IMG/VR virus record: IMGVR_UViG_3300032896_000432 | Span: 1-35,638 of that record | Length of the DNA stretch: 35,638 bases | Direction: 5' to 3' (one strand) | Source: a virus | Part shown: piece after piece, positions 5,790-35,638 of the stretch | How positions within the stretch are numbered: position 1 is the stretch's first letter | Layout of the letters: each line of letters opens with the position of its first letter | Program-made: the position numbers and the translations under genes | The notes under the pieces: generated by a model | Told to the model about the DNA's origin: nothing | Database searches by the model: none | Seen by the model: only the letters and a program-made list of their open reading frames with translations

Positions 5790-5802
5790 CGTCGATGCCC
5801 GA

Positions 5803-9812: not shown

Positions 9813-9849
9813 CTGCGGTCCCTCACGGCCGGCACCTTGCGCCGCCGCA

Positions 9850-13236: not shown

Positions 13237-14736
13237 TCAGCCGTTAGCGATATTGGTGATGACACCCATGGCAAACGGCGCGTAGACGGCCAGCACCTCT
13301 TCGGCGTAGACACCGACCTGCCGTTGCCGGGTCACGATCGGCCAGTCGATCTGGTAATAATCCTGCCGGGTTTTGACCTCGGCGACATTCGGCACCTCGT
13401 TCGACTGGTACTGGATCGGCAAATTCTCGGCCCAGCCGATGATCGTGCCTGGCGGAACGCGCGGATGGATCCGGATCGGGATCCGCAACCCGCCATAGAT
13501 CGCAAACGGATTGTAATAGAACTGTACCGTTCCCGATGCAGTCAGCTGGTACTCGCCCTCGCTGCCATCCGCCGGCGTATCATAGCGCAACAACGGGCCC
13601 GAGCTGTTCGACAATACCTTGGTCGTGATGTTCTTCAATTCCTGGGAATTGACGTAAAGCACAGTCGGGGAGAGCTCGAAATTGTTCCACATTGCCTGGA
13701 ACATCATGTCGATTTCGACGACCGAGCCGCGGCCTGAGGCGGTCAGCGGCGTCCCGGTCCCGGCGGTGCCGGTCGCCATGATATTGACGTAGGCGTTCGA
13801 GCCGTCTTTCAGCGCCGTCGTTAACAGCCCGTCATAGGCGTAGCTCGGATTGGCCGAATTGTCGGTGGTGATGGCACTCTGCGACTGGGTCCCGGTGGTG
13901 AGCGGTGCGGCAATCGCCAGGCTGTTGATCGTCGTGATCGCCTGCAGCGTCTCCGCCCCGGAGGCGGACCCGACATACCAGGCATAGGCAACCGCACCCT
14001 GGATCGGGGCAACGCTGCAGAACAGCGTCTGCCCGAGCGTCACTGCCTGGCTCGCTTCGCCACTGATGTTCGAGGAACCGCCCGAGAGCGTGAAGGTGTT
14101 GTTGTCGACGCCGGTGATCGTCTTCGTCGTGGCGACACCCGCCGAGACGCTTGAATTCTGGTAGCCCTCGAGGGTCAGCGCCGCGACCTTGACGTAATAG
14201 GTGGCGCTCGGCAGCGTCGCGGTGGCGCCCGAGGCCGACAGGGTCGGGGTTGCCGGCGTGCCCAGCACCAGCGAGGCGTTGCCGGCGAGGATCGCCATCT
14301 CCTCCTTCAGCATCATCTTTTGTAAGAGGCGAAACGTCATCCGCGCCTGGATGTCTTCGAATTCGCGGCCGGCAGAGATCGCTTCGAAAGTCGCGGCGTC
14401 TTCCTCGCCGATGGTCACGAACGTCGCCGACTTGTTCGAGGTCGAATACGACATCTGGCCGGAACGCTGGCCTTCCGGGACCCAGCCCATCGCGTCGAAG
14501 CCCGAGCCGATGATGGCGTTGACCTGGCGCCAATTGGTCGCGGTGCCGGTGCCGCCGCCGACCCGCGGCATCACGTTGCGGATCGGAGTGACGAACGGGT
14601 AGAGGTTTTTCGCCGGCGCTTGCAGGTCGTAGGCGACAAGACCGGTCGCGGTCGAGATCGATTTCGCGAGCAGGTCGTTGGGATGCCGGAGCGCCATCTT
14701 GCACAGCTCCAGCGTGTCCTGGGTGATCGAACTCAT
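13237..14736 (-). CDS. Major capsid protein with an inserted Ig/fibronectin-like domain
   Basis: A 499-residue HK97-fold capsid protein. The N-terminal arm and E-loop region (about 1-155) include PFVTPIRNVMPRVGGGTG and a helix FRLLQKMMLKEEMAILAGN. From about 160 to 285 there is an extra beta-rich domain (LPSATYYVKVAALTLEGYQN, then QGAVAYAWYVGSASGA), with the Y-x-V-x-A pattern of Ig/fibronectin III folds. After it the capsid core resumes (VVEIDMMFQAMWNNFELSPT, then IRIHPRVPPGTIIGWAENLP). GGAGG lies 7 nt upstream of the ATG. No separate decoration gene follows. Upstream lies a terminator-like hairpin. Confidence 0.85.
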   Translation of the reverse strand: MSSITQDTLELCKMALRHPNDLLAKSISTATGLVAYDLQAPAKNLYPFVTPIRNVMPRVGGGTGTATNWRQVNAIIGSGFDAMGWVPEGQRSGQMSYSTSNKSATFVTIGEEDAATFEAISAGREFEDIQARMTFRLLQKMMLKEEMAILAGNASLVLGTPATPTLSASGATATLPSATYYVKVAALTLEGYQNSSVSAGVATTKTITGVDNNTFTLSGGSSNISGEASQAVTLGQTLFCSVAPIQGAVAYAWYVGSASGAETLQAITTINSLAIAAPLTTGTQSQSAITTDNSANPSYAYDGLLTTALKDGSNAYVNIMATGTAGTGTPLTASGRGSVVEIDMMFQAMWNNFELSPTVLYVNSQELKNITTKVLSNSSGPLLRYDTPADGSEGEYQLTASGTVQFYYNPFAIYGGLRIPIRIHPRVPPGTIIGWAENLPIQYQSNEVPNVAEVKTRQDYYQIDWPIVTRQRQVGVYAEEVLAVYAPFAMGVITNIANG

Positions 14737-14809: not shown

Positions 14810-16981
14810 CTATTCACCGCGCAATGGTTTCGCCGCGGCGGTGCCGGGCGGGCGGATCGGGTTGGCGTGGCTCGCCTTGATCAGCGCCAGGGTCTGCTCT
14901 TCGTTGCTCATGCTGGCGAGCGCCTGGGCGAGGGCCTCCGGGGACAACCCGCCATCTCCGGCGCTGCGGTCCTGCTGCTTGGTGATCGCCGTCAGGTTCC
15001 GGCTCATCGTCAGGGGCGGCAGCGGCGTGCGGGCGATGTCTTCGACCCGCATTGCCAGCTGGTCGAGGCGCGGCACGATGTCGGTCAGGGTCGCAATCAG
15101 CGCTGCCTTTTCCGCACGTTCGTTCGCCAGAAGCTTGGCCAGATGGCCCGATGCCTTGCCGGTCTCGAATTCCGTTCCCTGCCATTCCGCCTCGGGCGCA
15201 AAGCCGGCGGCGTCGCATTTGGCACCGGCGGCAACGAGGTGGTCATGCGCCTCGGCCAGATGCTGCAAGGTCTCCTGCGAGTGCCGTGCGCCGGCCTTGG
15301 CGGCACCGCACAAGGCTCCGTCGCTCAGCTTGCCGATGCAGTCATGGGCCACATCCATCAGCGCCTGATGCCCCGCCCCGCGCTTGCCGAGAGCGGCCGC
15401 GATCATCTCGATCACGCCGTTCGCCGCGGCAGTGGCCGGCTGTCTTGTGCTGTCGACCGTGGCGTTTTCGCCGGGTCGGAATTCCGGTGCCGGCGGCCGC
15501 ACCATCGGCACCGGGCTCAGCGGATTGCCGGCGGTATCGACGGTCGCCTCCTCGCTCGGCATCGCACCCGCCGCCTTGAGCGCGTCGCGCGCCTGGGCCA
15601 GATGGCTCCGTTCGGTGAATAAGAGACCATCCATCCCGATACATTTGTCGACCGCATGGTGCGCGAGGTCGAGCAGCGCCTGATCGCCGAGGCTGTGCCT
15701 CGATTTGGCCAGTAATGACGCGGCGAGCTTGCGCAGCCTGGGGCCGCGCGTGCTGCACAGATCGGCAATGCGGGCGGCACCGGAGGCGCCGGCGGCCATG
15801 ATCAGCACATCTTCGACGACCGGGCTGTCGGCAGCGCTGCCGATCTCGGTATCGTTCAGGATCTCGCCGGTCTCTTCGGCCACCAGCGCATTCAAGAAGC
15901 CGCAAAGCTCGGAGATGATCGCTTGCAGCCGCGCCGGCTGCGGTGAGCTGTCGCCTTCCATCGCCGCCTCGACCGCCAGGCTCTCCTCGAGCCAGTCGAG
16001 ATCGAGAATGATCCGGGCAACGTGCCCGACATCCCATAGCGCCTTGGTCAGCGCGAGCCGGGTCGGGTTCGCCCCGGCCTTGCGCTGCCTGTCGGAGGCG
16101 GGCGGTCCGGCCGGGTCGATCCTCTCCTTCCAGGCGGCGATGATCCGGGCCTTGATCTGGTCGAGCTGCTCCGGGGTGTAGCGGCTGGCGTTGCCCGGGC
16201 GGTTGATAAAGCTCCAGGCAGCGCGGATATGCCGCTCGGTATCGATCGGATAGCGCTCTCTGCCGTCCGGCTGATAACCGGGATCGGCGTAAGGGACGGT
16301 GCCGTAAGGGGCATCGGCCCGTGCCTGGGTGCCGGCCTTGGCGAATGCTCCTTCGGCGTTGGCGACCGCACTCCTCGCCGCGGCGATCAGTGCCTCGCCG
16401 GAATATCCGCTCTGGCCGCCCAAAGAAGCAGCGCCGGCCGCCGTCCCACTCTCCTGACATTTGATCGCGTCGGCCTTGGCCAAGTGGCGGTGCTCGGGCA
16501 CGCCGCAGGCCCAAATCTGGATCGGCGAGTTGAACCGGGTCTCGGGCATCTTGCGCGCTCCTGCGGCTTTCCAATAGTCGAACACCGCTTCGGGATTGGC
16601 CGGGCGGTCGACCAGAGAGATTTCATTCAGCACCAGACCGGTAATCGTCGTGTAATCGACCGGATCGCGCTGGGTCACGACACCGCCGATCGAGTAGCCC
16701 TTGTAGACACCCTCGACGACCTTTTGCCATGCCTGGTCGTCGACGATGCGGGCTCCGATATAGAGACCCTTGTCATCGACCGCCGCCTCGCGGGCGACGC
16801 CGACCGCCGACAGCTGGTGCATCTCGCGAATGTTGGCAAAGCGCATGTAATCGCCGAGCGCTGCCATCAGGGCTTCGCGTTTGACGATCTCACCCTGGTC
16901 GTCGCGGGCTTCGGTCGAGGCATAGCCCCAGACCTCGCGCCGTTCCGCATCGACCTTTGCGATCGGCAAATAGAGTTTCAT
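14810..16981 (-). CDS. Prohead protease fused to a long C-terminal (scaffold-like) region
   Basis: The 723-residue protein starts at ATG 16981 (MKLYLPIAKVDAERREVWGY). Residues 1-145 resemble phage XkdF/prohead proteases; His55 in REMHQL and Ser97 in KGYSIGG are candidate catalytic residues, and LNEISLVDRPANPEA closes the domain, a segment widespread in these proteases. A DUF6582-like segment follows (about 227-290: YADPGYQPDGRERYPID and TPEQLDQIKARIIAAWKERI). Two related helical segments with HHAVDKC and AHDCIGK, each followed by a HLA-A/E-R/H helix, suggest internal duplication around 455-605. The C-terminal 100 residues are Ala/Leu-rich and helical, as expected of scaffold. The first frame residues upstream of 16981 read as shadow. 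Confidence 0.8.
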   Translation of the reverse strand: MKLYLPIAKVDAERREVWGYASTEARDDQGEIVKREALMAALGDYMRFANIREMHQLSAVGVAREAAVDDKGLYIGARIVDDQAWQKVVEGVYKGYSIGGVVTQRDPVDYTTITGLVLNEISLVDRPANPEAVFDYWKAAGARKMPETRFNSPIQIWACGVPEHRHLAKADAIKCQESGTAAGAASLGGQSGYSGEALIAAARSAVANAEGAFAKAGTQARADAPYGTVPYADPGYQPDGRERYPIDTERHIRAAWSFINRPGNASRYTPEQLDQIKARIIAAWKERIDPAGPPASDRQRKAGANPTRLALTKALWDVGHVARIILDLDWLEESLAVEAAMEGDSSPQPARLQAIISELCGFLNALVAEETGEILNDTEIGSAADSPVVEDVLIMAAGASGAARIADLCSTRGPRLRKLAASLLAKSRHSLGDQALLDLAHHAVDKCIGMDGLLFTERSHLAQARDALKAAGAMPSEEATVDTAGNPLSPVPMVRPPAPEFRPGENATVDSTRQPATAAANGVIEMIAAALGKRGAGHQALMDVAHDCIGKLSDGALCGAAKAGARHSQETLQHLAEAHDHLVAAGAKCDAAGFAPEAEWQGTEFETGKASGHLAKLLANERAEKAALIATLTDIVPRLDQLAMRVEDIARTPLPPLTMSRNLTAITKQQDRSAGDGGLSPEALAQALASMSNEEQTLALIKASHANPIRPPGTAAAKPLRGE

Positions 16982-17037
16982 GGCGTGATTTCCGACCCTC
17001 GCTTTGATGGCGTTAAGACGCTGCCGCCCGCCGGCGT

Positions 17038-17415
17038 TCAGGGGCTCGTCGGCGCGCACAGAACCGTGGAATTGAGCTTGAGCACCCGGCCGTCGCTGAG
17101 ATTGGCGGTGGCCTCGAGCACGTAGGTGGCGCCGCTCGCCGAGGCCGGCATGCCGCCGACCGTGGCGACCGAAAAGAAACCGGCCCGAATCTGCAGCGAG
17201 CCGTCGAGCGGCGAGCGCAGCTGGATCAATGTCGCAACTGAGGTCGCCAGGACTCGCGCCTGCGGTGTCGGATCGGTCGCCGTCTGGTAGGGTGCCAGCG
17301 AGCAGGTCCAGCTCGTCGACAGCATCGTTGCCGCCCCGATATCGGCGGTGAAATCGAAGGCGAAATTGTCGATCTCGCCGGGCTCGATCGGATCGAACGC
17401 CTGGGGCAACCGCAT
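17038..17415 (-). CDS. Small phage structural protein, fibre-tail adaptor-like
   Basis: A 125-residue protein starting MRLPQAFDPIEPGEIDNFAF, with a central FTADIGAATMLSTSWTC segment and a C-terminal YVLEATANLSDGRVLKLNST. This pattern (Asp-rich start, D-F-T, S-T-W-T, then a short beta domain ending in a polar strand) recalls phage fibre-tail adaptor proteins. AGGAG lies 8 nt upstream of the ATG, one base after the stop of the fibre-like gene, supporting a paired role. The role is inference. Confidence 0.6.
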   Translation of the reverse strand: MRLPQAFDPIEPGEIDNFAFDFTADIGAATMLSTSWTCSLAPYQTATDPTPQARVLATSVATLIQLRSPLDGSLQIRAGFFSVATVGGMPASASGATYVLEATANLSDGRVLKLNSTVLCAPTSP

Positions 17416-18577: not shown

Positions 18578-19564
18578 TCAGCTCCCCGGCGGCGGCAAGG
18601 TCCAGATCGCGACTCGGCTGATATTCGTGACCTGCCCCGTGCCGGTTGAAACCATCAGACAATAATGCTCGTTCGGTATCGGCGAATACGTACCCGCCGG
18701 CATGCCGAGGGCCGTGCCGTCGGCGACTGGAACCATTGTCGGGCTGTATTCGAGCGTGTCGTAGGCGATATCCGCCGTCGCCCGCTCGACGAGGCCAATG
18801 CCCCCGTTCATCGCCGGCGTGATCACCAGCGTGCCGTTCGGGCTGCCGCCGACCGCAGGTAGGTTGTAATCGTAGTCGGTGCCGGATAGTTCGCCATTGT
18901 CATAGGTGTAGTCATGCAGCGTGCGCCCGTAGGGCGATTCGTAAAGGTCGATCTCGGTGGCGCGCACTGGAGAGCTCTGCCCGCCGCCAAACCATTCCTC
19001 GCCCAGCATCCACGCGATCGACCAGCCGGACCAGGCTTGCGGCGGGATAATCGTCCCCGAATAGGAATAGCTGACGTCAATGTAAAACGGCGGCTGAAAG
19101 GTGGTCCCTGCGACCTCGCTACCGTTCCAATAGCAGGTGTTCCACATCCACCACGGGTATTCGTTGCCCGAGGCGGTGCTGTCCATCGTCAGCCCGAACC
19201 CGTTGATCGTGTAGTCTTCGGGCTGCGCCACCTGCGGCGGCCAGCAATAGGGTGCGGCCTTCTCGGTTGGGCAATCGGTCTGGACCGCATTCGGCATGTT
19301 GTTGTGGTCGTACCAGTGGAAACCGGGACGGCGCGTGTCGCCGATGTCGAACGTCGCCGGGTTCGACATATCGTCGACAAAGATTTCGCAGGTCAGCCCC
19401 CAGGCCGCAGCGATCGCCGGTGCCGGGTCGGTGCCGGGGCAGGTGTAGAGCGGCGCTGACGGCGCGCCGGTGGTCTGGCCGACCACCGACAAGGCCGCCC
19501 GAGCCATGCTCGGGGCGAGCGCCAGCATCGCGGCGAACGCCGCGCAGACGAGAAGCGCGCGCAT
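18578..19564 (-). CDS. Secreted GH16-like (beta-glucanase fold) protein
   Basis: A 328-residue protein with a Sec signal peptide (MRALLVCAAFAAMLALAPSM then ARA). In the mature part, PFYIDVSYSYSG and WSGWSIAWMLG precede EIDLYES (Glu204, Asp206, Glu209), which matches the E-x-D-x-x-E catalytic pattern of GH16 hydrolases on a concanavalin-type fold. Its likely role is binding or cutting a beta-glucan-like surface polysaccharide. The start ATG at 19564 overlaps a 29-codon ORF stop in TGATG; no clear ribosome site is seen, so coupling may be needed. Whether it is hydrolytic or only a binding module cannot be told here. Confidence 0.7.
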   Translation of the reverse strand: MRALLVCAAFAAMLALAPSMARAALSVVGQTTGAPSAPLYTCPGTDPAPAIAAAWGLTCEIFVDDMSNPATFDIGDTRRPGFHWYDHNNMPNAVQTDCPTEKAAPYCWPPQVAQPEDYTINGFGLTMDSTASGNEYPWWMWNTCYWNGSEVAGTTFQPPFYIDVSYSYSGTIIPPQAWSGWSIAWMLGEEWFGGGQSSPVRATEIDLYESPYGRTLHDYTYDNGELSGTDYDYNLPAVGGSPNGTLVITPAMNGGIGLVERATADIAYDTLEYSPTMVPVADGTALGMPAGTYSPIPNEHYCLMVSTGTGQVTNISRVAIWTLPPPGS

Positions 19565-21847: not shown

Positions 21848-23215
21848 TCAGCCTTGCCCCGACCCTGCACCCGATATCTGCGGCGATAGCCCGGCCGGAA
21901 GCGGTGCTGGCCCGTGCGAGGTTTGCACCAGCGGCTGATCACCACCGGCAACCGGCGGAAGGCCGAGAATTTCGCGCGCCTCATTGAGAGTATAGACGCC
22001 GTCCTTGACCAGGATATCGAGGATCGACGCCTGGTCCTTGGGATCGGTCGCTCGCGCATCCGACCAGACGAATTCGAGGTCGGGGTGCCCCATCCGGTCC
22101 TGGATCACGCCGTCGACCAGTCGCTTGACCCAGTTCGACAGCGGCGCCAGCCCCTCTTCGATGGCTGTCTGCTGCGCCGATTGCGCAGTCGCCCGGTTGA
22201 CCTGCGGCGTGAACGCGGTCGGCGGCAGCGAAAAGGCATAGCAGACGATGCGGGCCAGCCATTCGTCGAACTCGTCCTTGTACGGGGCTTCCTTGAACGC
22301 CTGGTACTTGGCTCCGGTCGGTGCCCAGATCAGCCGGGTGCGCGAACCGGTATTGCCGGCGAGGATCGAGTCGAACCACTCCTGGAATTGCCGGATCTGC
22401 TCGGCATTCCACCCATCCGGCGCGTTCAACAGCCCGGGCGGCACATTGCCGTCGGTGAAATGCTGCAGTTGCATCAGCTGGCGCCGCAGGCCGATATTGA
22501 TCGTCATCAGGATCTGTTCACACGGCCCAAAGCCATAGGCCTTGTGCGGCCGCTTGTTGCGCGGCAGGTAGAGCAGCTGGTCGGCCGTCAGCAAACGCCA
22601 GGGCCGGCCGTGAATGATCTGCTCGTAGGCCGGTGCCGGCGGCAGCGGGCGCCGCCCGGTATCATCGATCAGCACCTTGATCGTGGCGCCATCCACGGCG
22701 TCGAGGGCAACGATCTCGCCGGCCCGGTTGCGGCGGATCTCAAGGGTCGGTGCGTCGAGCACCAGGAGATCCTCGAGCAATTCGCGCAGCCAGGTGGCAA
22801 AGGGCTGCTCGCCGTCGGGCTTGCGCCAGAACGCGGTCAGCGCGGCGATGCGTTCGGCTGCACCGGCCGCCGGCTGCTTTTCGTTGCGGGACTTGATCGT
22901 CCAGTCGAGCTTTTCGATCTGGTCCTTGCGCGTCTCGATCGCCAGCCGCGTGATGTCATGGTTTTCGGCCAGCGCGCGCAATTCGTGAAAACCGACCGGC
23001 TCGTAGGAGCGCGGGGTATAGATCGTGTTGTAGCCAACCGGAAAATCCCACACCCGCACCCGCTCGCGCTCGGGCGGGACCAGCGGATAGCCGGGCGAGA
23101 AGATCCCTTGGTCGGGCTGGAACACATCGCGGAACTGGGTAATGTCGTTCTGCGTGCCGAACCCGCCCCAGCTGTAGGAGGCGAGCGACGTGCGTTTTCC
23201 ACCAGGCGGGGGCAT
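21848..23215 (-). CDS. Phage portal protein
   Basis: This 455-residue portal forms the dodecameric entry ring of the head. Motifs typical of portals in this sequence: YEPVGFHELRALAENHDITR, IETRKDQIEKLDWTIKSRNE, YLPRNKRPHKAYGFGPCEQI, and the region IVCYAFSLPPTAFTP followed by NRATAQSAQQTAIEEGLAPL. The start at 23215 is supported by GAGGTGA 7 nt upstream and lies 4 nt after the upstream stop; the earlier in-frame ATG at 23236 has less support. It is separated from the terminase genes by about 6 kb of fibre and exported-protein genes, an unusual place. Confidence 0.9.
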   Translation of the reverse strand: MPPPGGKRTSLASYSWGGFGTQNDITQFRDVFQPDQGIFSPGYPLVPPERERVRVWDFPVGYNTIYTPRSYEPVGFHELRALAENHDITRLAIETRKDQIEKLDWTIKSRNEKQPAAGAAERIAALTAFWRKPDGEQPFATWLRELLEDLLVLDAPTLEIRRNRAGEIVALDAVDGATIKVLIDDTGRRPLPPAPAYEQIIHGRPWRLLTADQLLYLPRNKRPHKAYGFGPCEQILMTINIGLRRQLMQLQHFTDGNVPPGLLNAPDGWNAEQIRQFQEWFDSILAGNTGSRTRLIWAPTGAKYQAFKEAPYKDEFDEWLARIVCYAFSLPPTAFTPQVNRATAQSAQQTAIEEGLAPLSNWVKRLVDGVIQDRMGHPDLEFVWSDARATDPKDQASILDILVKDGVYTLNEAREILGLPPVAGGDQPLVQTSHGPAPLPAGLSPQISGAGSGQG

Positions 23216-23219
23216 CGGA

Positions 23220-24167
23220 TCACCTCGGAAAGCCATGTGCGGCGTTGCGCAGCGAGCGGGTCGCCGCGGCGACCCCGGCCACTTCGGCCATCATGTCGTC
23301 GTCCGGAAAAACCAGGAACCCGAACGGATCCTGCAGCAGGTCGAAGATCGCCTGGTCGGCCAGCACCGTGTTCCAGGCGGCAGCGAACAACAAGGCCCCG
23401 TCGAGGTAGCTGGCCTCGTTGGTGCCGGCGACGATGGAATTGCCGAAGTTGGCCTCGTCCCATTGATTGACGCCTTTTGCAGCGCCGGTGATCGTGCTCT
23501 TGGTCTGGCCGAAGAACATGCTGGCGGTGCCGCTCGGGTAATCAAGGGTCAGCGCCGCGGCAAAAGGCTGGCCCAGCACGACCGATTGCGAAAAGGTCCC
23601 GGTGGTGGTCGTTGTGGTCACCCAGTCGATGAAAAAGCTCGTGCTGTTTGCGGCGATTTGCAGCGAGGCACGCCGCGCCACCGCATGTCCCTCGATGCCG
23701 AACAGGGTCTGTGCCGCTTCCTGCACGTCGTCGAGTTGGGCGACGACGAGCATCGTCTGCTGGGCCGGACTCGCCGACCACGGGCCGCGTCCGGCACCGA
23801 TCGAGGTCCAGATGTATTGCGAACTGCCGTTGAAGCCGCAGGCCTGGCCGGCCGTCGTGGTCTCGGGACTGAAGGCGGCAAATTGCGTCCGGTAGGGATA
23901 GCCGCGCAGCGACAGGCCCCATAGCGGCGCGCCGAACGGACCCTGCGTCACATCGTAGGCCGACCCGTCGAAATGCCAGGCGTCGGCCAGGAATGCGGTG
24001 ATCGGATCATTCGCCAGCCGGGGAAACCCGGGCGGCCGGTAGAGCCCGCGATAGGGCCGCAGCGGCTGCTCGAACGCCGGCGCTGGGCGGGGTGCGAGGA
24101 GCGCCGCGCCGCTACCAAGGAGGCCGGTCATGAACCGCCGCCGGCTCGTCCACCGCGATCGGCCCAT
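23220..24167 (-). CDS. Tat-signal LamG-like (concanavalin-type) protein
   Basis: The protein of 315 residues from ATG 24167 begins MGRSRWTSRRRFMTGLLGSG. SRRRFM matches the twin-arginine (S-R-R-x-F-M) motif, followed by a hydrophobic stretch and an A-x-A site (PAPAF), so it would be exported folded. The rest is a LamG-like jelly roll: WHFDGSAYDVTQG, CGFNGSSQYIWTS, then an AAWNTVLADQAIFDLLQDPF segment typical of LamG-type phage proteins. A longer TTG-started frame reaches back to about 24245; the Tat motif favours 24167. It lies directly upstream of the portal gene. A glycan-binding role is inferred from the fold. Confidence 0.7.
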   Translation of the reverse strand: MGRSRWTSRRRFMTGLLGSGAALLAPRPAPAFEQPLRPYRGLYRPPGFPRLANDPITAFLADAWHFDGSAYDVTQGPFGAPLWGLSLRGYPYRTQFAAFSPETTTAGQACGFNGSSQYIWTSIGAGRGPWSASPAQQTMLVVAQLDDVQEAAQTLFGIEGHAVARRASLQIAANSTSFFIDWVTTTTTTGTFSQSVVLGQPFAAALTLDYPSGTASMFFGQTKSTITGAAKGVNQWDEANFGNSIVAGTNEASYLDGALLFAAAWNTVLADQAIFDLLQDPFGFLVFPDDDMMAEVAGVAAATRSLRNAAHGFPR

Positions 24168-24238
24168 CTGCAGTGTCGCGCTCGGCGCCTCGCTCGAACC
24201 CTTCGCACCCGGCCGCTGCCGACGCCGCCGCGTTACGA

Positions 24239-24778
24239 TCAATATTGCACCGCGGTCGGGGCCAGCACGATGCTGTTGCCACTGGCGTTCAGGGTCTGGC
24301 CGCTGTTGTTCTGGCACAGCACCTTGAACCGCAATGCCGGCAGTCGGACCAGCCCCTGCGACAGGAACATCTCGGTCGCGCTGAGAGAAGCGGGCGGCAG
24401 CGGGAAAACGACGTCGGGTGCGCGCGGCGGCGACGTGGCAGTATTCTCGAAGGTCGTGCCGTCGACCGATTGCAGAAACCAGCAGGATAGATTGCCCCCG
24501 GTCTGGAACGCACCGGTGGTCGGACCGAGGGTCAGCAGCAGCGGCGACCAGATGACCTGTCCGGTATTGGCGTTGCTGAACACTCCGGCGGCACCGCCGA
24601 CGCTGCTCACCGCCACCGCCCCGGAGGCGACCGCGTCGAGCTCGCTCGACATCAGCGTCAGGGCCGGTGCGTAGAGGCCGTTATTGGCGGTGCCGGGCTG
24701 CCACAGAAACGGCGATGCGGCCTGCGCCGACAGCGATATGCAACAGGCGACGACGGCGACAAGCCATTTTCGCATCAT
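24239..24778 (-). CDS. Secreted phage-operon protein, unknown function
   Basis: A 179-residue protein with a Sec signal peptide (MMRKWLVAVVACCISLSAQA then ASP). The mature part is beta-rich with polar loops (NNGLYAPALTLMSSELDAV, then WSPLLLTLGPTTGAFQTGGN) and contains FLQSVDGTTFEN, like small phage virion proteins. Its ATG shares a base with the upstream stop (TGATG). No catalytic motif was seen. It is one of five consecutive genes with export signals. Confidence 0.65.
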   Translation of the reverse strand: MMRKWLVAVVACCISLSAQAASPFLWQPGTANNGLYAPALTLMSSELDAVASGAVAVSSVGGAAGVFSNANTGQVIWSPLLLTLGPTTGAFQTGGNLSCWFLQSVDGTTFENTATSPPRAPDVVFPLPPASLSATEMFLSQGLVRLPALRFKVLCQNNSGQTLNASGNSIVLAPTAVQY

Positions 24779-25731
24779 CAGTTCACCCAGGAATTGCCGT
24801 TTGCATCGCAGGTCACCGCCCGTGCTTCGTAAGGCGGGATGCCGGCGGTGCTGGCGTTCATGACAAAGCTGGCGGCGCCGTCGATCGTTCCGCTCGCGGG
24901 CGTCAGCGTGATCGCGTCAGTGGCGTCATTGCCGGCACCGTCCTTGACCATCAGCGTGAAGCCGGGCGCGCAGCTGTAGTTGACCGTCGTCGGCTGCGGC
25001 GTCGTCTTGTCGATGACGATCAGGTAATCCGTTGTCGGCGAAACCGTCACCGGCCCCACCGCGGTCACCACCCGGATCGGAACGTAAAGCGATCCATTCC
25101 AGGTCGAGGTGCCGGAATAGACATTGTCGCCGGTAAAGCTGGTGTTGGCGGGCAGAACATTCGGCAGGCGCGCCGCGGCCAACGTGCCCGAAGTGATGTT
25201 GCCGGCATTGGTCGCGTCGGTTGCGCAGGACGGTGCCGCGCCGGCCAAATCGCTGCAGGACGGCTGCGACGCATGCGGCACACCGGCAGTCGAGATGCTG
25301 TCGAGCCATTGATGCGCGACTGCGGTGATGCTTTCAACACCGCCAAGACTGGCGGAGCCCGGCGGCGGCAGGTCGGCACCAACGATCGCCCGTGGTGCGA
25401 TCGCGCCTGCCGCGCCATTGGGTGAGGCGAGAAACAGATTGGCCGGCTCCGCAGCGCTGCCGAGCGACAGCGTCCCCGAGGAGACGACCGGCGAGCCGGT
25501 GACGGAAAGCCATGACGGCGCCGCCAGGCCGACGCTCGAGACGGTGCCAGTCGGGCTCCCGCCGTCGCGGATTTGCCCGGTGCCGGCCCAGACTGCAGCA
25601 TCACCGATGGTGACCGGGCCGGATTGGACGACGCTTTTGACGGTGCTGGCCGGCCCATATTGAACCGACTGGGCGTGGAGTGGTGCGGCATTGGCGAGCA
25701 CCAGGGCGCCGGCGACGATGGCAAGCTTCAT
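24778..25731 (-). CDS. Secreted tail-fibre-like protein
   Basis: The 317-residue protein begins at ATG 25731, overlapping the upstream stop as ATGA; a longer frame upstream reads as shadow. A Sec signal peptide (MKLAIVAGALVLANAAPLHA then Q) is followed by a repetitive Gly/Ser/Thr-rich body. It contains NITSGTLAAARLPNVLPAN, a segment common in phage tail fibres, and a later TTDYLIVIDKTTPQPTTVNY segment as in fibre tips. It is probably a virion or surface fibre protein with an export signal. Confidence 0.7.
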   Translation of the reverse strand: MKLAIVAGALVLANAAPLHAQSVQYGPASTVKSVVQSGPVTIGDAAVWAGTGQIRDGGSPTGTVSSVGLAAPSWLSVTGSPVVSSGTLSLGSAAEPANLFLASPNGAAGAIAPRAIVGADLPPPGSASLGGVESITAVAHQWLDSISTAGVPHASQPSCSDLAGAAPSCATDATNAGNITSGTLAAARLPNVLPANTSFTGDNVYSGTSTWNGSLYVPIRVVTAVGPVTVSPTTDYLIVIDKTTPQPTTVNYSCAPGFTLMVKDGAGNDATDAITLTPASGTIDGAASFVMNASTAGIPPYEARAVTCDANGNSWVN

Positions 25732-26120
25732 TGCGCGCGAGCCTTGAAAAAGGCGGTCGGGCTGGCGGTTTTGGTGAAGCATCCGGTCGAGCTGAATACG
25801 GCAACAATGCCAATCGAATAGATGTCCGGCGGACCCTCGAAATTGATCGAGACGGTGCTGTCGGCAGGCGCCACGACGCATTCGACCGGGGTTACCGCCC
25901 CGTCCGCCGGGGCCTCGTCGGCATTGAAGGTCATGACATATCCCGCAATGTCACCGGTGGTCACGTAGAGCGAATAGAGGTTGCCCGGTGCCGCCTTGAT
26001 CAGATGGCTTGCCTCCGGCATGGCGGAGGTGGTCGGTATGATGCCGGCCTGGTAGGCGAGGGCGGGTGCCGCGCTGCCGGCACAGACCAGCAGACAGGCG
26101 AATGCCGTCACGGTGCGCAT
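25728..26120 (-). CDS. Secreted small virion-type protein
   Basis: A 130-residue protein with a Sec signal peptide (MRTVTAFACLLVCAGSAAPA then LAYQ). The mature part has SHLIKAAPGNLYSLYVTTGD and ends TGCFTKTASPTAFFKARAQ. I recall similar proteins (AAPGNLYSLYVTT, CFTKT) in alphaproteobacterial prophages as single-domain virion-like proteins of unknown function. The ATG at 26120 is 9 nt after the spike stop; the next gene overlaps by ATGA. Confidence 0.65.
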   Translation of the reverse strand: MRTVTAFACLLVCAGSAAPALAYQAGIIPTTSAMPEASHLIKAAPGNLYSLYVTTGDIAGYVMTFNADEAPADGAVTPVECVVAPADSTVSINFEGPPDIYSIGIVAVFSSTGCFTKTASPTAFFKARAQ

Positions 26121-26129
26121 CGCCGATAC

Positions 26130-28700
26130 TCAGAAGGATGACAGCGCAGCGCGCTTCCAGGTATTGGGCGCGGTGCAGAAATAGAGATAATTGCTGTCCG
26201 CCTGGAGCTGCCCGATATTGCAGGCAGCACTGCTCGATGCCGGGGTGCCCGGCGAGATCAGGCCGCCGAGATCGTTGATCGTCTGCGGTGTGGCGCTGGT
26301 GATCCGGAAATTGCTGCCGTCGAAGCGCAGTTGCAGGAATTCATAATTCTGTCCGGCGGCGAGTGCGATCGAACTGGTCGATATCCCGCCCTGCGCCGGT
26401 TCGAGGATCGCGCCGCCGGAGACGCCATTGACGTCGATCGCCAGCGGCTTGCCATTGTCGGTGGCAAATCCCATCGTCCACCCGGCGCTGATCGCGGTTG
26501 TCGAGGGCAGGGTGACGGTCAGCCCGGCGCCGGTGTTGTAGCTCGACAGCGCATTGCCGTTGTCGCTCTGCCCGGCGCTGTAGGTCGCCGCGGTCGGAAA
26601 GTTCCACCGGTTGATGTCGGGTGTGGCGCCGGCGAGGCCGATCAGCGCCGCGGTCGCCGGGGTCGCTTCGGTGACGCGGAAATTCGACCCGTCGAACCGA
26701 AGCAGCAGAAACTCGTAGTCGCCGGTTGCCAATGTCGCCGAGGTCACCGACGTGCCGCTGCCCGGATAGAGAATGTGGCCCCCGGCGGTGCCATTGACCT
26801 GGACCGACATCGTCTTGCCGTCGTCGGTTGTCAGCCCCAGGGTCCAGCCCATCGGCAGCGAGGTGGTCGGCGGCAGCGTCACCGCCATATACGAGGTCGG
26901 GCTGTTGTCGCTCGACACTACATTGCCGTTGTCGGCCAATGTCGCGCTGTAGGCACTGGTCGCCGGAAAGCTCCAATGGCTGGCCGAGGCCGCGCCGATC
27001 ATTCCGATCGACTGTGCCGTGGCCGGCGTCGCGCCGACGACCCGGAAATTGCCGCTGCCGTCATATTGCAGCACCAGGAACTCGTAGGCGCCCTGGCTGG
27101 TGTTGGCGAGAGCGACCGTGGTCGCGGCCGCACCCGATCCCGGCCACACGATATGCCCGCCGGAAACCCCGTTGACCTGGACCGTCAGCGATTTGTTGTT
27201 GTCGGTCGCAAATCCCATGCTCCATCCGGTCGGCAGGCCGGTCGTCGATGGCAGCGTCACGGCGAGTCCCGAGGGGGTATTGTAGCTCGACAGAATGTTG
27301 CCATTGTCACCGAGTGTCGCGGCGTAGCCCGAGCTCGTCGGATACAGCCAGTTGCTCGGCCAGGGGGGCGGCTCGAACCCCATGTTCAGTCGCGTGTTGC
27401 GTGTCGAGGAGACGATCCGCCAGTTGTTGCCGTCGGACTGGACCCGCAGATATTCGTAATTGCCGCTGCCGAGCGTGACGGTCGTGACGAGTTTGCCGCC
27501 TAGCACGAGATTGCCGCTGGGGGCGGTGACCGTCATCCCCTTGCCATTATCGGTGGCAAAGCCCATCGACCAGCCCGGGGCAACATTGGCGATCGGCGGC
27601 AGGGTCACGGCGAGCGACGTGCCCGGTGCATTGAAGCTGGAGACCGACATGCCGTCGTCGATCGGCGCCGCCGTATAGGTCGCGCTCGCTGGAAACATCC
27701 ATTGCGGGCGCGAGCCGGTACCCTGGACCGCGATACCGACCGAATTCGGACCGTAATTGACGACATTGCCGCCGTAATTGGGATTGATCAGGGTATTGCC
27801 GACACTCGCCGTCGCATTGACCGCTGTGACACAGTCGAAATAAGGTGAGACAAAGGTGTTGAGGCCGTTGTGATCAAACGTGATCGACAGGCAGGTCGGC
27901 GAGGCTTCGAGATCGAGGCCGACAAACGTGTTCGAGAAATTATAGCCGTTCTCCAGCACCAGGGCGCGGCCGCCGGTCGCAGACGCGGTGCCGGCACCGG
28001 AAATGTGGGAAAACTGCAGCTGCTCAAAGGCCATGCCGGCGCCGCCACCAGCGGTGTCGCAGACCGCGTAGATGTCGCTGTCCAATACGTAATTGAACTG
28101 GCAGGCACCCGCACCAGCGCTGCTGCTGGCGTTGTTGACGATCAGATGATCGATCTTGGCCGAGTTGTGCGCATCGGAAAAATCCGGCTTGCCAAAGACG
28201 ACGGCATAGGAAGGAGTATCGGCTTCGATAAACAGCGAGCCCTCCTCCTTGAAGTAGAAGCAGCCGGTCGGGCTGGCGGGAGTGCCGCCGCTGCACTGGA
28301 TTTGCAAGACCGGCCCGGAGGCGACGGCCCGGCCGTCGATGACGGCACCCTGCGAGATCAGACGAAAGCCGTTGCTTGCCTCTCCGGCGTAATCGATCGT
28401 CAGCTCGCTGGTGACCTTGTAGGTCCCGGCCGGGATGTACATCGGCCAGTCGTGGACGATGGCGGTATTGATCGTGGTCTCGATCGCGCTGGTGTCGTCG
28501 TGCGTGTCGTCGCCGACGGCACCATTGCAGCGCACGTCGATCCACGGCCGCCCCGAGCACATCAGCACATCGCCGCCGAGCGTCGCGGTGCCGCTCGTCG
28601 ACAAGGTCGAGAAATTGCCTGGTGATTGTGCCAAGCTCGGCTGCGCGAGAACGACGCCGACGACGCACAGGCACAGCGAGACGGCGAGAAGGAGCTTCAC
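26130..28700 (-). CDS. Tail spike with beta-helix domain, four repeats and a signal peptide
   Basis: An 856-residue protein starting with GTG at 28700 (AGGA 9 nt upstream). A Sec-like signal peptide (MKLLLAVSLCLCVVGVVLAQ) precedes a Pectate_lyase_3-type start (VRCNGAVGDDTHDDTSAIE, then MYIPAGTYKVTSELTIDY), so residues about 55-320 should form a right-handed beta-helix. Then four repeats of about 100 residues occur (about 334-432, 451-555, 577-677, 699-802), each with W-x-F/Y-P, VTLP, GW-S/T-M/L-G-F/L, and YEFL or similar followed by N-F/W-R-V/I. The C-terminus (NYLYFCTAPNTWKRAALSSF) matches common phage fibre ends. Host polysaccharide binding or cleavage is likely; the signal peptide is unusual for a spike. 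Confidence 0.8.
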   Translation of the reverse strand: MKLLLAVSLCLCVVGVVLAQPSLAQSPGNFSTLSTSGTATLGGDVLMCSGRPWIDVRCNGAVGDDTHDDTSAIETTINTAIVHDWPMYIPAGTYKVTSELTIDYAGEASNGFRLISQGAVIDGRAVASGPVLQIQCSGGTPASPTGCFYFKEEGSLFIEADTPSYAVVFGKPDFSDAHNSAKIDHLIVNNASSSAGAGACQFNYVLDSDIYAVCDTAGGGAGMAFEQLQFSHISGAGTASATGGRALVLENGYNFSNTFVGLDLEASPTCLSITFDHNGLNTFVSPYFDCVTAVNATASVGNTLINPNYGGNVVNYGPNSVGIAVQGTGSRPQWMFPASATYTAAPIDDGMSVSSFNAPGTSLAVTLPPIANVAPGWSMGFATDNGKGMTVTAPSGNLVLGGKLVTTVTLGSGNYEYLRVQSDGNNWRIVSSTRNTRLNMGFEPPPWPSNWLYPTSSGYAATLGDNGNILSSYNTPSGLAVTLPSTTGLPTGWSMGFATDNNKSLTVQVNGVSGGHIVWPGSGAAATTVALANTSQGAYEFLVLQYDGSGNFRVVGATPATAQSIGMIGAASASHWSFPATSAYSATLADNGNVVSSDNSPTSYMAVTLPPTTSLPMGWTLGLTTDDGKTMSVQVNGTAGGHILYPGSGTSVTSATLATGDYEFLLLRFDGSNFRVTEATPATAALIGLAGATPDINRWNFPTAATYSAGQSDNGNALSSYNTGAGLTVTLPSTTAISAGWTMGFATDNGKPLAIDVNGVSGGAILEPAQGGISTSSIALAAGQNYEFLQLRFDGSNFRITSATPQTINDLGGLISPGTPASSSAACNIGQLQADSNYLYFCTAPNTWKRAALSSF

Positions 28701-28711
28701 CGGTCGATGTC

Positions 28712-29149
28712 CTACCAGCGCCGTGCTGCGAAGGCCTGGCCGCTGCTGGCGCCGTAGAGGCTGACGGCACCGGCGGGCTTGTACCCGGGCGGGGTCGCGA
28801 AGATCGCGCCGGGGGCGACTGGGATCGACGCGCCGCCCGCCGTCGCCGCGCCGACGTCGCAGACATAGATCGGCGCGTCCGAGTTGTTGGCGACGAGCCA
28901 GCCATTGCCCGGCACGATGCCGCCAAATAGAGTCTGCGCCGTGCCGCCGACCCCGACCGTGCTGCTGCCATCGATGGCGCTTGCTCCAGCAGTGTTGATC
29001 ACCGGCAGCGGGGCCGCGGCGCTGACCGGCGTCGCCACCCCGGCGACAACCGCCGCCGGCGTGTGCACCGGCACCAGGTTGCCGACGCTATCGAGCCCGG
29101 TCGACAGCGCCTGGATGGTCGTATTCGCATCTTTGACGAGCAGCGTCAC
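28712..29149 (-). CDS. Hypothetical virion-type protein
   Basis: A 145-residue protein starting GTG at 29149 (AAGGAG 7 nt upstream), MTLLVKDANTTIQALSTGLD. The body is Ala/Gly/Val-rich with a C-terminal FATPPGYKPAGAVSLYGASS. No signal peptide, unlike its downstream neighbours. I recall short phage proteins with this V-K-D-x-N start near tail-fibre genes. Possibly a fibre partner or head-fibre protein. Confidence 0.6.
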   Translation of the reverse strand: MTLLVKDANTTIQALSTGLDSVGNLVPVHTPAAVVAGVATPVSAAAPLPVINTAGASAIDGSSTVGVGGTAQTLFGGIVPGNGWLVANNSDAPIYVCDVGAATAGGASIPVAPGAIFATPPGYKPAGAVSLYGASSGQAFAARRW

Positions 29150-29182: not shown

Positions 29183-30553
29183 TCAGTCGGGCGGCTTGCG
29201 GCGAGGCGGTTGCGACAGCTCGCGGTTCAGCCGGCGATAAACTTCATAAATTCCCTCGCCGGCCATCGGCTCGACGAGGAGGTCGGTCAGCGCCCACACC
29301 AGCGCGTCGGCCCGGTCGGGAGACCCTCCCGTCCGGCGGCCATCGCGGTTGGCGGCCGCACCGCGAACAAGATTGCACATCTGGTCTTCGAGCCGTGCGA
29401 ACGAGCCGAGATGATGGACGCGTCCCTGCTCGTAGAGTGCCGCGACCGGCTCGGCGCGGGTCACCTTGCCGCGCGAGGCATGCACCGCGGCGAAGGGCAG
29501 GTCCGGTTCCACCATCCGCAGGGTCGCCTCGACCATCTCGCCGCCATTGTTGACCTCGGCGACGATCCGGTCGGCGCGATGCGCGCGATAGGCGGCGACC
29601 GCAGTCCTGGCCCATTCGGCCGGCTGATAGCGCCCGGACAGATCGGCCAGCACCCAGCCATGACCTTGCGTGTCCTTGCCGGCGACAATGATCCCGGTCT
29701 CGTCGGCATCCCGGCCCGAGCTCGCGGCGGGATCGATCGCGACGACGATCCGCGCCAGATCGGGCGCCTCGCTGGCGCGCGCGGCCTCGATGAGACCGTG
29801 GTTCCACAGACCGCCCGGCAGGTCGTCGAGCAGCTCGGCCTCGATCTCCTGTCGCCCGATCCGGGTCCCCTCGTATTTGCGGACGATCTGTTCGATGAAA
29901 TCGGGAGCGAGATTGGCGCGGTTCTCGTAAGTGGTGCCGCGCGTGACCGTGACGGTCCGGTCCGCGGTCAGTTGGCGCAACAGTTTGGTCGGCCGCGGCG
30001 TTGTCGTCACCACGACCCTGGGGTCGGTGCCGAGGCGCAGCCCGAACATCAGCATGTCCCAGGCTTCGGGATGGCGCCAGCTGGCGAGTTCGTCACACCA
30101 TCCGGTATCGTGCTGCGGCCCGCGCAGCCGCTCCGGTTCGTCCGCGCTGTAGAGCGTCGCGATGGCACCGTTCGACCAGGTCAGCCGCCGTTTCGAGGGT
30201 TCGTAGCGCGGGCGGTCCCAGGGTGGCGAGATCGCCAGGATGCCGCTCTCGCCCTCGACCATGACATCGCGAGCGTCAGCGGCGGTCGGTGCGACGAGTG
30301 CCACCCGCCGTGCCGTCCCGCTGGCCACCCGGGCGCGGATCAACTCGGCACCGGTTCGGGTCTTGCCAAACCCGCGTCCGGCGAGCAGCAGCCACACGCG
30401 CCAATCGCCAGGCGGCGGCAGCTGATTGGGCCGCGCCCAGAACGGCCAATCATAGAGCAGTGCGCGCGCCTCGTCCTGGGTCAGCGCCTCGACCAGGCTA
30501 TTCCTCAGCGCCTCCGGCAGCGAGGCGAGCCAAGCGGCGTGCAAGCACCTCAC
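29183..30553 (-). CDS. Terminase large subunit
   Basis: This 456-residue DNA-packaging motor has an ATPase and a nuclease domain. Walker A is in LLLAGRGFGKTRTGAEL (about 58-65) and Walker B in GWCDELASW (Asp154-Glu155). A nuclease Asp is in VVAIDPAASS (Asp274); later acidic residues include Asp in SPDRADALVWALTDL. GTG at 30553 is chosen because GGAGG lies 6 nt upstream; the upstream ATG would extend it by 11 Arg-rich residues. It overlaps the small subunit end by 56 nt. The sequence resembles the GTA-type terminase family. Confidence 0.93.
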   Translation of the reverse strand: MRCLHAAWLASLPEALRNSLVEALTQDEARALLYDWPFWARPNQLPPPGDWRVWLLLAGRGFGKTRTGAELIRARVASGTARRVALVAPTAADARDVMVEGESGILAISPPWDRPRYEPSKRRLTWSNGAIATLYSADEPERLRGPQHDTGWCDELASWRHPEAWDMLMFGLRLGTDPRVVVTTTPRPTKLLRQLTADRTVTVTRGTTYENRANLAPDFIEQIVRKYEGTRIGRQEIEAELLDDLPGGLWNHGLIEAARASEAPDLARIVVAIDPAASSGRDADETGIIVAGKDTQGHGWVLADLSGRYQPAEWARTAVAAYRAHRADRIVAEVNNGGEMVEATLRMVEPDLPFAAVHASRGKVTRAEPVAALYEQGRVHHLGSFARLEDQMCNLVRGAAANRDGRRTGGSPDRADALVWALTDLLVEPMAGEGIYEVYRRLNRELSQPPRRKPPD

Positions 30554-30965
30554 GCGCGTCCTCCGCGAGCCCGGCCGGCGCGCCATCCTCCTGCCGCCGG
30601 GGTGGTTGCACGAACATTCCGAGATGGCGGGCGATCGCGTCGAGCGCCGCCTTCTTGTCGTAGAGCTTCACGCGGTAGCTCCCGGTCCCGCCGGCAGCGG
30701 GGGTGATCTCCGAAATCGCAGCGGCATCGGCATCGCTCAGCGTCTCCGGTGTCTTCAACACAAACCCGTCCGGTCCCCAATCGGCGACGCGACGCAGATC
30801 GGCAAAGGCAATGCGCGCGTATTCCTGCAGCACCCGCTCGGGTGTGACCCCGAGCCGGGCGGCACGTTCGACGATCTCGTCCCGTGGCGGTGCCAGCGAA
30901 CCCGGTGCCGGCGAACCCGGTGCCGGCGAACCCGGTGCCGGCGAACCCGGTTGTGGCCCTGGCAT
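30498..30965 (-). CDS. Terminase small subunit, without a recognisable N-terminal HTH
   Basis: A 155-residue protein from ATG 30965 (AAGG 8 nt upstream); an in-frame TTG at 31040 would add 25 basic residues. The C-terminal half is typical: GVTPERVLQEYARIAFADLR, then KTPETLSDADAAAISEITP, then VKLYDKKAALDAIARHLGMF, as in Terminase_2-type small subunits. The usual N-terminal DNA-recognition domain is missing; in its place is a PGSPA repeat encoded by four 15-bp tandem units. An in-frame stop at 31077-31079 limits the frame upstream. Loss of the DNA-binding domain may mean relaxed or GTA-like packaging, or that recognition lies elsewhere. Confidence 0.82.
   Translation of the reverse strand: MPGPQPGSPAPGSPAPGSPAPGSLAPPRDEIVERAARLGVTPERVLQEYARIAFADLRRVADWGPDGFVLKTPETLSDADAAAISEITPAAGGTGSYRVKLYDKKAALDAIARHLGMFVQPPRRQEDGAPAGLAEDAREVLARRLARLAAGGAEE
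30889..30948. repeat. Four 15-bp tandem repeats inside terS
   Basis: The unit ggtgccggcgaaccc occurs four times in a row (30889-30903 with one substitution, then 30904-30918, 30919-30933, 30934-30948), followed by a diverged partial unit. In the small terminase frame it encodes PGSPA-type five-residue repeats. Such repeats can change length by slippage. Confidence 0.9.
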
Positions 30966-31076
30966 GCGCGCGGCCTTGCCGTCCTGGCGCCCGGGTCCTG
31001 CCGCGCGTTGTGCCGGCTGCCGACCGGTGCGAGATGCCAAATGCGATGCTCTTGCCTGTGATTGCCAATGGCGCCG

Positions 31077-32243: not shown

Positions 32244-32303
32244 ATCGCATTTTTATGATAGCGTGATTGGGATTGTTGTCAATATAGAAATTGCGATTAT
32301 GTT
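32244..32303. promoter_or_regulatory. Divergent operator region with ATCGCA/TGCGAT motifs
   Basis: The 60-bp AT-rich region holds ATCGCA (32244-32249) and its inverted copy TGCGAT (32292-32297), with a related GCGTGATT at 32261-32268 between them. A plus-strand candidate promoter (TTGTTG 32273-32278, GATTAT 32295-32300, 16 nt spacing) would start transcription close to the repressor ATG. No ribosome site precedes that ATG, so a leaderless mRNA is likely. Repressor binding to these motifs is inferred. Confidence 0.5.
32255..32282 (-). promoter_or_regulatory. Probable leftward early promoter, TTGACA-N16-TATCAT
   Basis: On the minus strand TTGACA (32282-32277) and TATCAT (32260-32255) are separated by 16 nt. 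The start point would be near 32247, giving a leader of about 30 nt to the GcrA-like ATG. It shares its -35 area with the rightward promoter of the repressor, so the two could exclude each other. Confidence 0.65.
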
Positions 32304-32972
32304 ATGGATACGCAGTGGTTCCACCAGGCGCTCGAACGCGCCGGCGCCACGCAGGCCGATCTCGCACGGCACCTGCGCCTCGCGCCGTCGGCGGTATCCC
32401 GCATGCTCAAAGGCGAGCGCCAGATGAAGCAGCTCGAAACCGTGCAGATCGCCGGCTTTCTCGGCGTCAGTCCGGATGAGGTGCTGGGTCATGCCGTGGC
32501 CGCAACCGGGGTGGGCGCGATCAGCGAGCCGCCGCGGCCGGGTCGCGGCCGTCCGCCTTCGGCCGCACCACTCGCGGCCCCGCGCGCGGCCGATCTGATC
32601 CCGATCCGCAGCGCCGGGCGCGGCGGCACCGACCAGGTGATGTTTCTCGATGACGGCCCGATCGGATATACGCCTCGGCCGGCCAATCTCGGCGGCGTCC
32701 GCGCGGCCTATGCGATCTACATGGTCGGCGACAGCATGCAGCCGCGCTACGAGCAGGGCTGGTTATTGCATGTCAATCCATTCAAGCCACCGACCCGCGG
32801 CCGCGACGTCGTCGTTTACAAGATCGGCGAGATCGTCCTGATCAAGCAGTTTGTCGGCTGGGAGGGCGACACCCTGGTGCTGCGCCAGTTCAACCCCCCC
32901 GACATCCTGCGGGTTCCGCGCGCCGAAGTGCGCGAATGCCATCTCGTCGTCGGCGCCGATCAGGAAGGCTGA
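32304..32972 (+). CDS. CI/LexA-type phage repressor (HTH plus S24 peptidase)
   Basis: The only phage gene on the plus strand. The 222-residue protein has an N-terminal XRE-type HTH (about residues 15-40: QADLARHLRLAPSAVSRML) and a C-terminal S24 autoprotease. The catalytic Ser144 is in MVGDSMQPRYEQG and the Lys is Lys181 in IVLIKQF; the 37-residue spacing equals that of LexA. A possible Ala-Gly cleavage bond is Ala104-Gly105 in the linker (IRSAGRGG). It should hold lysogeny and be cleaved after DNA damage through RecA. It faces the GcrA-like gene across the operator region and converges on clpB. Confidence 0.9.
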   Translation: MDTQWFHQALERAGATQADLARHLRLAPSAVSRMLKGERQMKQLETVQIAGFLGVSPDEVLGHAVAATGVGAISEPPRPGRGRPPSAAPLAAPRAADLIPIRSAGRGGTDQVMFLDDGPIGYTPRPANLGGVRAAYAIYMVGDSMQPRYEQGWLLHVNPFKPPTRGRDVVVYKIGEIVLIKQFVGWEGDTLVLRQFNPPDILRVPRAEVRECHLVVGADQEG

Positions 32973-32980
32973 ACGACCGA

Positions 32981-32999
32981 GCACCCGCAGTGCGGGTGC
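32981..32999. terminator. Hairpin between converging repressor and clpB
   Basis: GCACCCGC, loop AGT and GCGGGTGC form a perfect 8-bp stem right after the repressor stop (32972) and before the clpB stop (33044). There is no U-run on either strand, so it is terminator-like but not canonical. A second, overlapping GC inverted repeat (GCGGGG/CCCCGC) follows. The prophage-host junction probably lies in this 71-bp gap or near it. Confidence 0.5.
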
Positions 33000-33043
33000 G
33001 GGGCACACCCGAAGCACCCCGCGCCCAACCGCTCTGCTCAGGT

Positions 33044-35638
<2,595 letters not shown>

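Follow-up and report, generated by a model that had tools for sequence, protein, structure and literature searches.

Why would a tailed phage place export signals on proteins of the tail-spike type? In the textbook view, tailed phages build all parts of the virion in the cytoplasm and free them at lysis. The question is raised by the IMG/VR virus record IMGVR_UViG_3300032896_000432, the 35,638 nucleotides of which have been analysed here in full and are referred to as the window. Five consecutive open reading frames, the first encoding a spike with a pectate-lyase-like domain, are present on the minus strand at 23220-28700, and a sixth at 18578-19564. A sequence-only reading of this DNA had proposed that all six begin with Sec or Tat signals. 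The present analysis suggests that in a family of phages of uncultured soil bacteria the infected cell exports spike-type proteins rather than building them into virions in the cytoplasm.

Signals have been detected with a rule-based finder for Sec/signal peptidase I substrates, which looks for a positive n-region, a hydrophobic core and small residues at -3 and -1. The finder accepted 5/5 secreted and 0/2 cytoplasmic proteins of E. coli. Shuffled proteins pass at a rate of 2.6%, and the background in the core genes of related phages is 19/496 (3.8%), with any start within the first 60 codons allowed. All six genes are positive (scores 4.6-7.0), as the sequence-only reading had led one to expect, whereas the 21 other phage genes of the window are all negative; five consecutive positives at the 3.8% background correspond to p ~8e-8. 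The n-region, hydrophobic core and -3/-1 residues typical of Sec/signal peptidase I substrates are found in these proteins. A lipobox was also looked for, and none of the six proteins has a cysteine at +1, the predicted sites being those of signal peptidase I.

The spike is comprised of a pectate-lyase-like domain (PF12708, Pect-lyase_RHGA; E-value 4.7e-7, 30.3 bits against a cut-off of 27), four repeats of ~110 residues and a tail-fibre-type C-terminal cap (phrog_17312, 'tail protein'; 3.6e-11). Only ~28 residues separate the cleavage site from the lyase domain, and no virion-anchoring N-terminal domain has been found in the spike among the Pfam and PHROG families. Relatives were collected from IMG/VR as 80 loci with related portals, 44 of which contain both the end of the terminase large subunit gene (terL) and the start of the portal gene. 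The spike lies between the two in 42 of these 44 loci, the two without it being L008 and L072. In an alignment of 18 homologues picked for a clear signal, residues 2-23 share a mean pairwise identity of 25%, the cleavage pair A24-Q25 is invariant (18/18) and residues 26-60 share 78%. A cleaved signal shows just this behaviour, in that the signal drifts while the cleavage site stays fixed. The homologous match reaches the N-terminal part of the spike in 51 loci; 40 of these pass the signal rule, nine more show by eye a hydrophobic stretch followed by AQ with an uncertain start codon, and the remaining two (L028 and L040) are truncated where the contig ends. Loss of the hydrophobic N-terminus in homologues, which the sequence-only reading had named as evidence that would speak against it, is ruled out, as homologues are not found to begin downstream of the hydrophobic stretch and most of them have no start codon between it and the conserved mature residues.

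An independent line pointing to export comes from the cysteines. Among accessory proteins that have homologues and contain cysteine, counted in the mature part, an even number of cysteines is found in 31/33 of those with a signal, compared with 52/108 of those lacking one (Fisher 1.3e-6). Counted by family the figures are 15/17 and 15/28 (Fisher 0.02), and this is the fairer comparison because homologues share cysteines. In the window, the cysteine counts of the five Sec proteins are 10, 2, 4, 2 and 6. The Tat protein has only one and would fold before export.

The four companions of the spike in the five-gene block keep their signals in related phages. They occur at the equivalent place in two loci (L002 and L003), and in a third (L007) two of them stand behind the portal; signals are kept wherever the start is complete, including the twin arginine of the Tat protein. 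This twin arginine is retained in 5/5 homologous contigs; the motif [ST]RRx[FLM] appears as SRRRFMTG, SRRRFLTG, TRRYLLSG and SRRGLLTG, with GRRGLLTG as one exception. The fibre-like protein has the N-terminal motif QSG..T.GD.A.W..G.IRDGG, and its homologues in L002 and L003 retain the signal peptide. All homologues of the protein encoded at 24239-24778 with a complete start retain both the signal peptide and two cysteines. The homologue search between terL and portal that the sequence-only reading had suggested thus recovers the spike in nearly all loci of the family and the companions in L002 and L003. Since the companions recur in few loci and the spike in nearly all, the spike is a core gene of the family and the companions are accessory.

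The small all-beta companion, referred to as the dec-type protein, is also represented beyond the family. Phages outside the family, most of them unrelated to it, contribute 33 loci with its domain; of the 29 complete genes among these, 28 have a signal and the last looks signal-like by eye. The cysteine pair C59/C92 of the mature fragment is invariant in 33/33 aligned sequences. Two of the phages with a dec-type domain, which have 62-65 kb and are unrelated to the family, encode runs of five or six genes, most of which bear signals (L084, 5295-11827; L092, 6874-13141), and the L084 run includes an exported protein with a glycosyl-hydrolase core domain. A search of 385 alphaproteobacterial genomes, made with no positive control, found no dec-type domain. 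An AlphaFold2 model of the dec-type protein is all beta with a pLDDT of 91.5. Its assignment to a known family was rejected, as there is no Pfam or PHROG match and no meaningful match in the PDB by sequence. Foldseek against the PDB gives beta-sandwich lookalikes, the cement protein of phage KHP40 and the turret of HFTV1 (E ~0.01), and against predicted models an uncharacterised protein of Ralstonia phage RSK1 (E 6e-9, TM 0.86).

Some further signal-bearing genes have been noted in the phage contigs. L015 encodes at 13735-14466 a protein that by eye resembles a GDSL esterase (GDSITEC), and L092 encodes at 9691-10557 one that looks metalloprotease-like by eye and has no Pfam match. A protein of L107 (10346-10786) combines a Tat-like motif with a lipobox-like ALAGC and recurs in a second contig.

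There is good support for the view that these proteins are made to be exported, which we consider very probable. The support is strong because a conserved cleavage site goes with a diverged signal, the twin arginine is conserved, the cysteines show parity and the signals recur in unrelated phages. Chance and misassigned starts as a general explanation are ruled out by the shuffled proteins, the controls from the same genome and the conservation.

Relatives in named isolated phages are sparse. The spike matches there only through its 46-residue C-terminal cap, which is shared with a tail protein of Klebsiella phage Whistle that has an ordinary virion-fibre start and no signal, and which is also common to structural proteins of cyanophages. 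For the dec-type protein, the 24239-24778 protein and the Tat protein no relatives have been found in these phages. Two weak likenesses were recorded: a signal-less protein behind terL in Sphingomonas phage Scott shares the post-signal motif of the dec-type protein of L086 (E 0.3), and Xanthomonas phage PBR31 has a dec-type relative (E 0.2) with neither signal nor cysteine. Judged by the portal, the closest isolate is Brevundimonas phage Polewnik (44%), in which terL is followed directly by the portal gene, and none of five genes checked around this junction bears a signal. Spike homologues also occur in metagenome-assembled genomes labelled mostly Alphaproteobacteria or Acetobacteraceae, two others being labelled Rhizobium sp. 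and Binataceae; strong homologues are present in 10/43 genomes of the order containing one of these assemblies.

The domain content indicates polysaccharides as the targets, because it includes pectate-lyase-type, LamG-like and GH16-like (EIDLYE) proteins and the glycosyl-hydrolase core domain of the L084 run. Of the glycan-binding and glycan-degrading set envisaged by the sequence-only reading, such a role is supported for the spike by its Pect-lyase_RHGA domain and is plausible for the other two. The LamG-like assignment was read from the sequence by eye, with no Pfam match, and the GH16-like assignment was drawn from the EIDLYE motif alone; the GH16-like protein has no relative in Pfam, the PDB or viral contigs.

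The gene order places the block in the packaging region (Table 1). From the conserved protein upstream of the spike to the portal, the successive junctions are an 11-nt gap, a 9-nt gap, an ATGA-type overlap, a 1-nt overlap, a 71-nt gap and a 17-nt overlap with the portal gene; the 71-nt gap, ahead of the Tat protein gene, is the sole looser junction of the block. The coupling of the five genes between terminase and portal is therefore as had been proposed. The further proposal that they stand in place of the head genes is wrong: the protease, probable major capsid protein and connectors lie downstream of the portal, together with the tape measure and a tail tip of the gene-transfer-agent (GTA) type. 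In a scan of 21.5-33 kb for sigma-70-like sites only, the single good-quality promoter-like match stands back to back with the repressor promoter, and no match is internal to the spike and companion block. The GC content and the GC content at third codon positions (GC3) of the five genes are like those of neighbouring genes. The spike and companion genes form a single compact operon together with terS, terL and portal. A recently gained moron was considered and rejected in view of the phage-core composition and the operon embedding; as far as sigma-70-like sites go, the block shows neither a promoter and terminator of its own nor the deviating composition that would mark a moron.

Table 1. Features of the 35,638-nucleotide window discussed in the text (SP, signal peptide score of the rule-based finder)
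Feature	Position	Strand	Remarks
Core exported spike (predicted)	26130..28700	-	Sec signal, predicted cleavage between MKLLLAVSLCLCVVGVVLAQPSLA and Q; SP 6.98
Exported small all-beta protein, dec-type (predicted)	25728..26120	-	invariant Cys pair; SP 5.71
Exported fibre-like protein (predicted)	24778..25731	-	4 Cys; SP 5.91
Exported protein, unknown fold (predicted)	24239..24778	-	2 Cys; SP 6.45
Exported LamG/ConA-like protein (predicted)	23220..24167	-	Tat signal SRRRFMTG and h-region; 1 Cys
Exported GH16-like protein (predicted)	18578..19564	-	EIDLYE motif; 6 Cys; outside terL-portal block; SP 5.84
Conserved non-exported protein	28712..29149	-	145 aa; directly upstream of spike
Portal	21848..23236	-	PF04860
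Terminase large subunit (terL)	29183..30586	-	PF03237, PF17289
terS	30498-31040	-	
Promoter-like site of leftward operon	32255..32282	-	11/12 matches
Divergent S24/helix-turn-helix repressor	32304..32972	+	PF00717, PF01381
Endolysin-like gene	at 19657	-	downstream of portal
Protease	14810-17059	-	downstream of portal
Probable major capsid protein	13237-14736	-	downstream of portal
tRNA-Pro(CGG)	32955-33041		2 nt from clpA; looks like host flank
clpA	33044-35638		looks like host flank; right end of window

From the signals and their conservation, the cysteine parity, the operon structure and the phage-type modules, all of which are read directly in the DNA, we infer export itself, disulphide bonds, enzymatic activity, timing and a function in release. 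Along with terminase and portal, the repressor-controlled leftward operon would make the core spike and companions that vary from phage to phage. The infected cell would export them through Sec, and one through Tat, with cleavage by signal peptidase I, and the Sec substrates would fold with disulphide bonds in the periplasm. The proteins themselves are phage-derived modules of the spike, fibre and lectin kinds, the signal of the spike sitting where a virion anchor would be expected. Most probably they bind and degrade the envelope or matrix polysaccharides of the producer before and during lysis and are freed in soluble form, so that progeny would not be trapped on receptor glycans or debris. 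We consider such soluble action of exported, disulphide-folded spike proteins on the producer to have an even chance of being correct. The more general proposition, that the lineage routes spikes through Sec and Tat for disulphide folding in the periplasm, followed either by docking on virions or by soluble clearing of matrix, and that the strategy is widespread in uncultured phages, is probable on balance.

Several points weigh against soluble action. Proteins made in the cytoplasm are also freed at lysis, and for this reason the signal would have to serve folding or an action before lysis. The parity difference is only moderately significant at the family level, and a lysogen promoter could have been missed by a scan for sigma-70-like sites. 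The first 35 mature residues are the most conserved part of the spike and could be a virion-docking peptide. The last point leads to the possibility that the proteins are virion appendages matured in the periplasm, which would be exported, disulphide-folded, kept from the cytoplasmic heads and docked once lysis has occurred, with the conserved protein encoded at 28712-29149 perhaps serving as the site. This non-exported protein adjoins the core spike gene, and a mature N-terminus more conserved than the lyase domain, with an exchangeable cap, is the usual layout of a virion-bound spike. The tailspikes of P22 attach to completed heads in vitro. However, no anchoring domain is recognised in the spike, the putative partner resembles a spike base neither in fold nor in sequence, and ordinary spikes need no export; we regard docking as less likely than soluble action, but as a serious alternative to it.

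The sequence-only reading had left open whether a lysogen or an infected cell is the exporter. Export by the infected cell is favoured by the operon layout, and lytic-phase production fits better because the genes are placed in the packaging operon. Expression in the lysogen is unsupported, since terL and portal flank the genes within a single unit whose members overlap or nearly abut, the only promoter match adjoins the repressor, and GC and GC3 are those of the phage core. Lysogenic conversion or superinfection exclusion, in which a lysogen would export proteins that mask or degrade phage receptors, is for these reasons unlikely, even though the window looks like a prophage and exported phage blockers such as T5 Llp exist (PMC9586334); Llp is an early product rather than one of a late operon. 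The esterase gp40 of PBR31, which bears a signal, resembles tail-associated hydrolases and has been proposed to act in lysis (PMC10975493), offers a model for an exported accessory lysis set weakening the envelope before lysis, and families of signal-bearing small membrane proteins and Rz1-like proteins do occur downstream of the portal in relatives. The spike and companions are, however, grouped with packaging genes and not with lysis genes, which makes this very unlikely. We give hardly any credence to an artefact of misassigned starts, or of uncleaved hydrophobic N-termini working inside the virion. A TTG at residue 23 of the spike might in principle serve as the start of a form without signal, and the start codon is hard to place in some homologues, but the invariant A-Q, the twin arginine, the cysteine parity and the lack of an intervening start codon in most homologues argue otherwise.

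Single exported phage proteins are known, as exemplified by Llp and gp40. No description of exported spike sets has been found in the open-access literature, in agreement with the sequence-only reading, and a survey of the targets of phage diversity-generating retroelements found no signal peptides on them (PMC6199706). Llp resembles the proposed set in being exported and in sparing progeny unproductive adsorption to infected cells or lysed fragments, but it is a lipoprotein acting on a protein receptor and not a spike (PMC9586334). Likewise gp40 is a tail-type hydrolase with an N-terminal signal, but a single enzyme placed with the lysis genes (PMC10975493). The pectate-lyase tailspikes and depolymerases (PF12708) share the N-terminal pectate-lyase-like domain and the tail-fibre-type cap (Whistle, cyanophages); here a signal peptide takes the place of the virion anchor, cysteines are conserved and the gene lies between terL and portal. 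The detachable tailspike TspA belongs to RcGTA, an alphaproteobacterial GTA the tail of which has relatives in the window (Rcc01698_C domain, 1803-4478). A partial role as a soluble enzyme that degrades matrix has been proposed for TspA, but it is loosely held on the baseplate and no signal peptide is reported (PMC13420450). The head spikes of RcGTA, whose tail again has relatives here, are glycan-binding with a short N-terminal anchoring peptide; they differ in that no export signal is mentioned (PMC10218006) and their base protein has no detectable relative in the window.

If the proposal is true, phages also secrete spike-type proteins that bind or degrade glycans, either for escape from the host matrix or for completion of the virion outside the cytoplasm. 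A core spike with an export signal, conserved family-wide and with parallels in unrelated phages, would offer a testable explanation of why progeny do not stick to their producer cell, and a potential source of disulphide-stabilised depolymerases.

The neighbour of the spike, encoded at 28712-29149, has no signal peptide by the rule-based finder and a mean column identity of 80% among 35 sequences; its AlphaFold2 model is confident only from about residue 60, and no relative by sequence is found in the PDB. It is possibly a docking or decoration protein. Its identification as a spike base of the RcGTA type was rejected, there being no sequence match and no convincing fold match. The window was also examined for anti-phage defence genes, with no PADLOC match.

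Downstream of the portal, the 749-residue protease carries its prohead protease domain at the N-terminus, and in addition a stretch of DUF6582 and a long further part. The products of 1803-4478 and 4935-7502 form the GTA-type tail tip (Rcc01698_C, Phage-tail_3, phrog_2913, phrog_778), between the genes of which a possible glycosyltransferase is encoded at 5803-6882 (PF13692, 4e-4, below the curated cut-off). All phage genes of the 35.6-kb record run leftward on the minus strand except the S24 repressor. No integrase has been identified within the window, which looks like a prophage on account of the tRNA-Pro and clpA at its end and the repressor. The region 32955-35638, where the tRNA-Pro(CGG) stands beside the phage repressor gene, is a likely attachment site.

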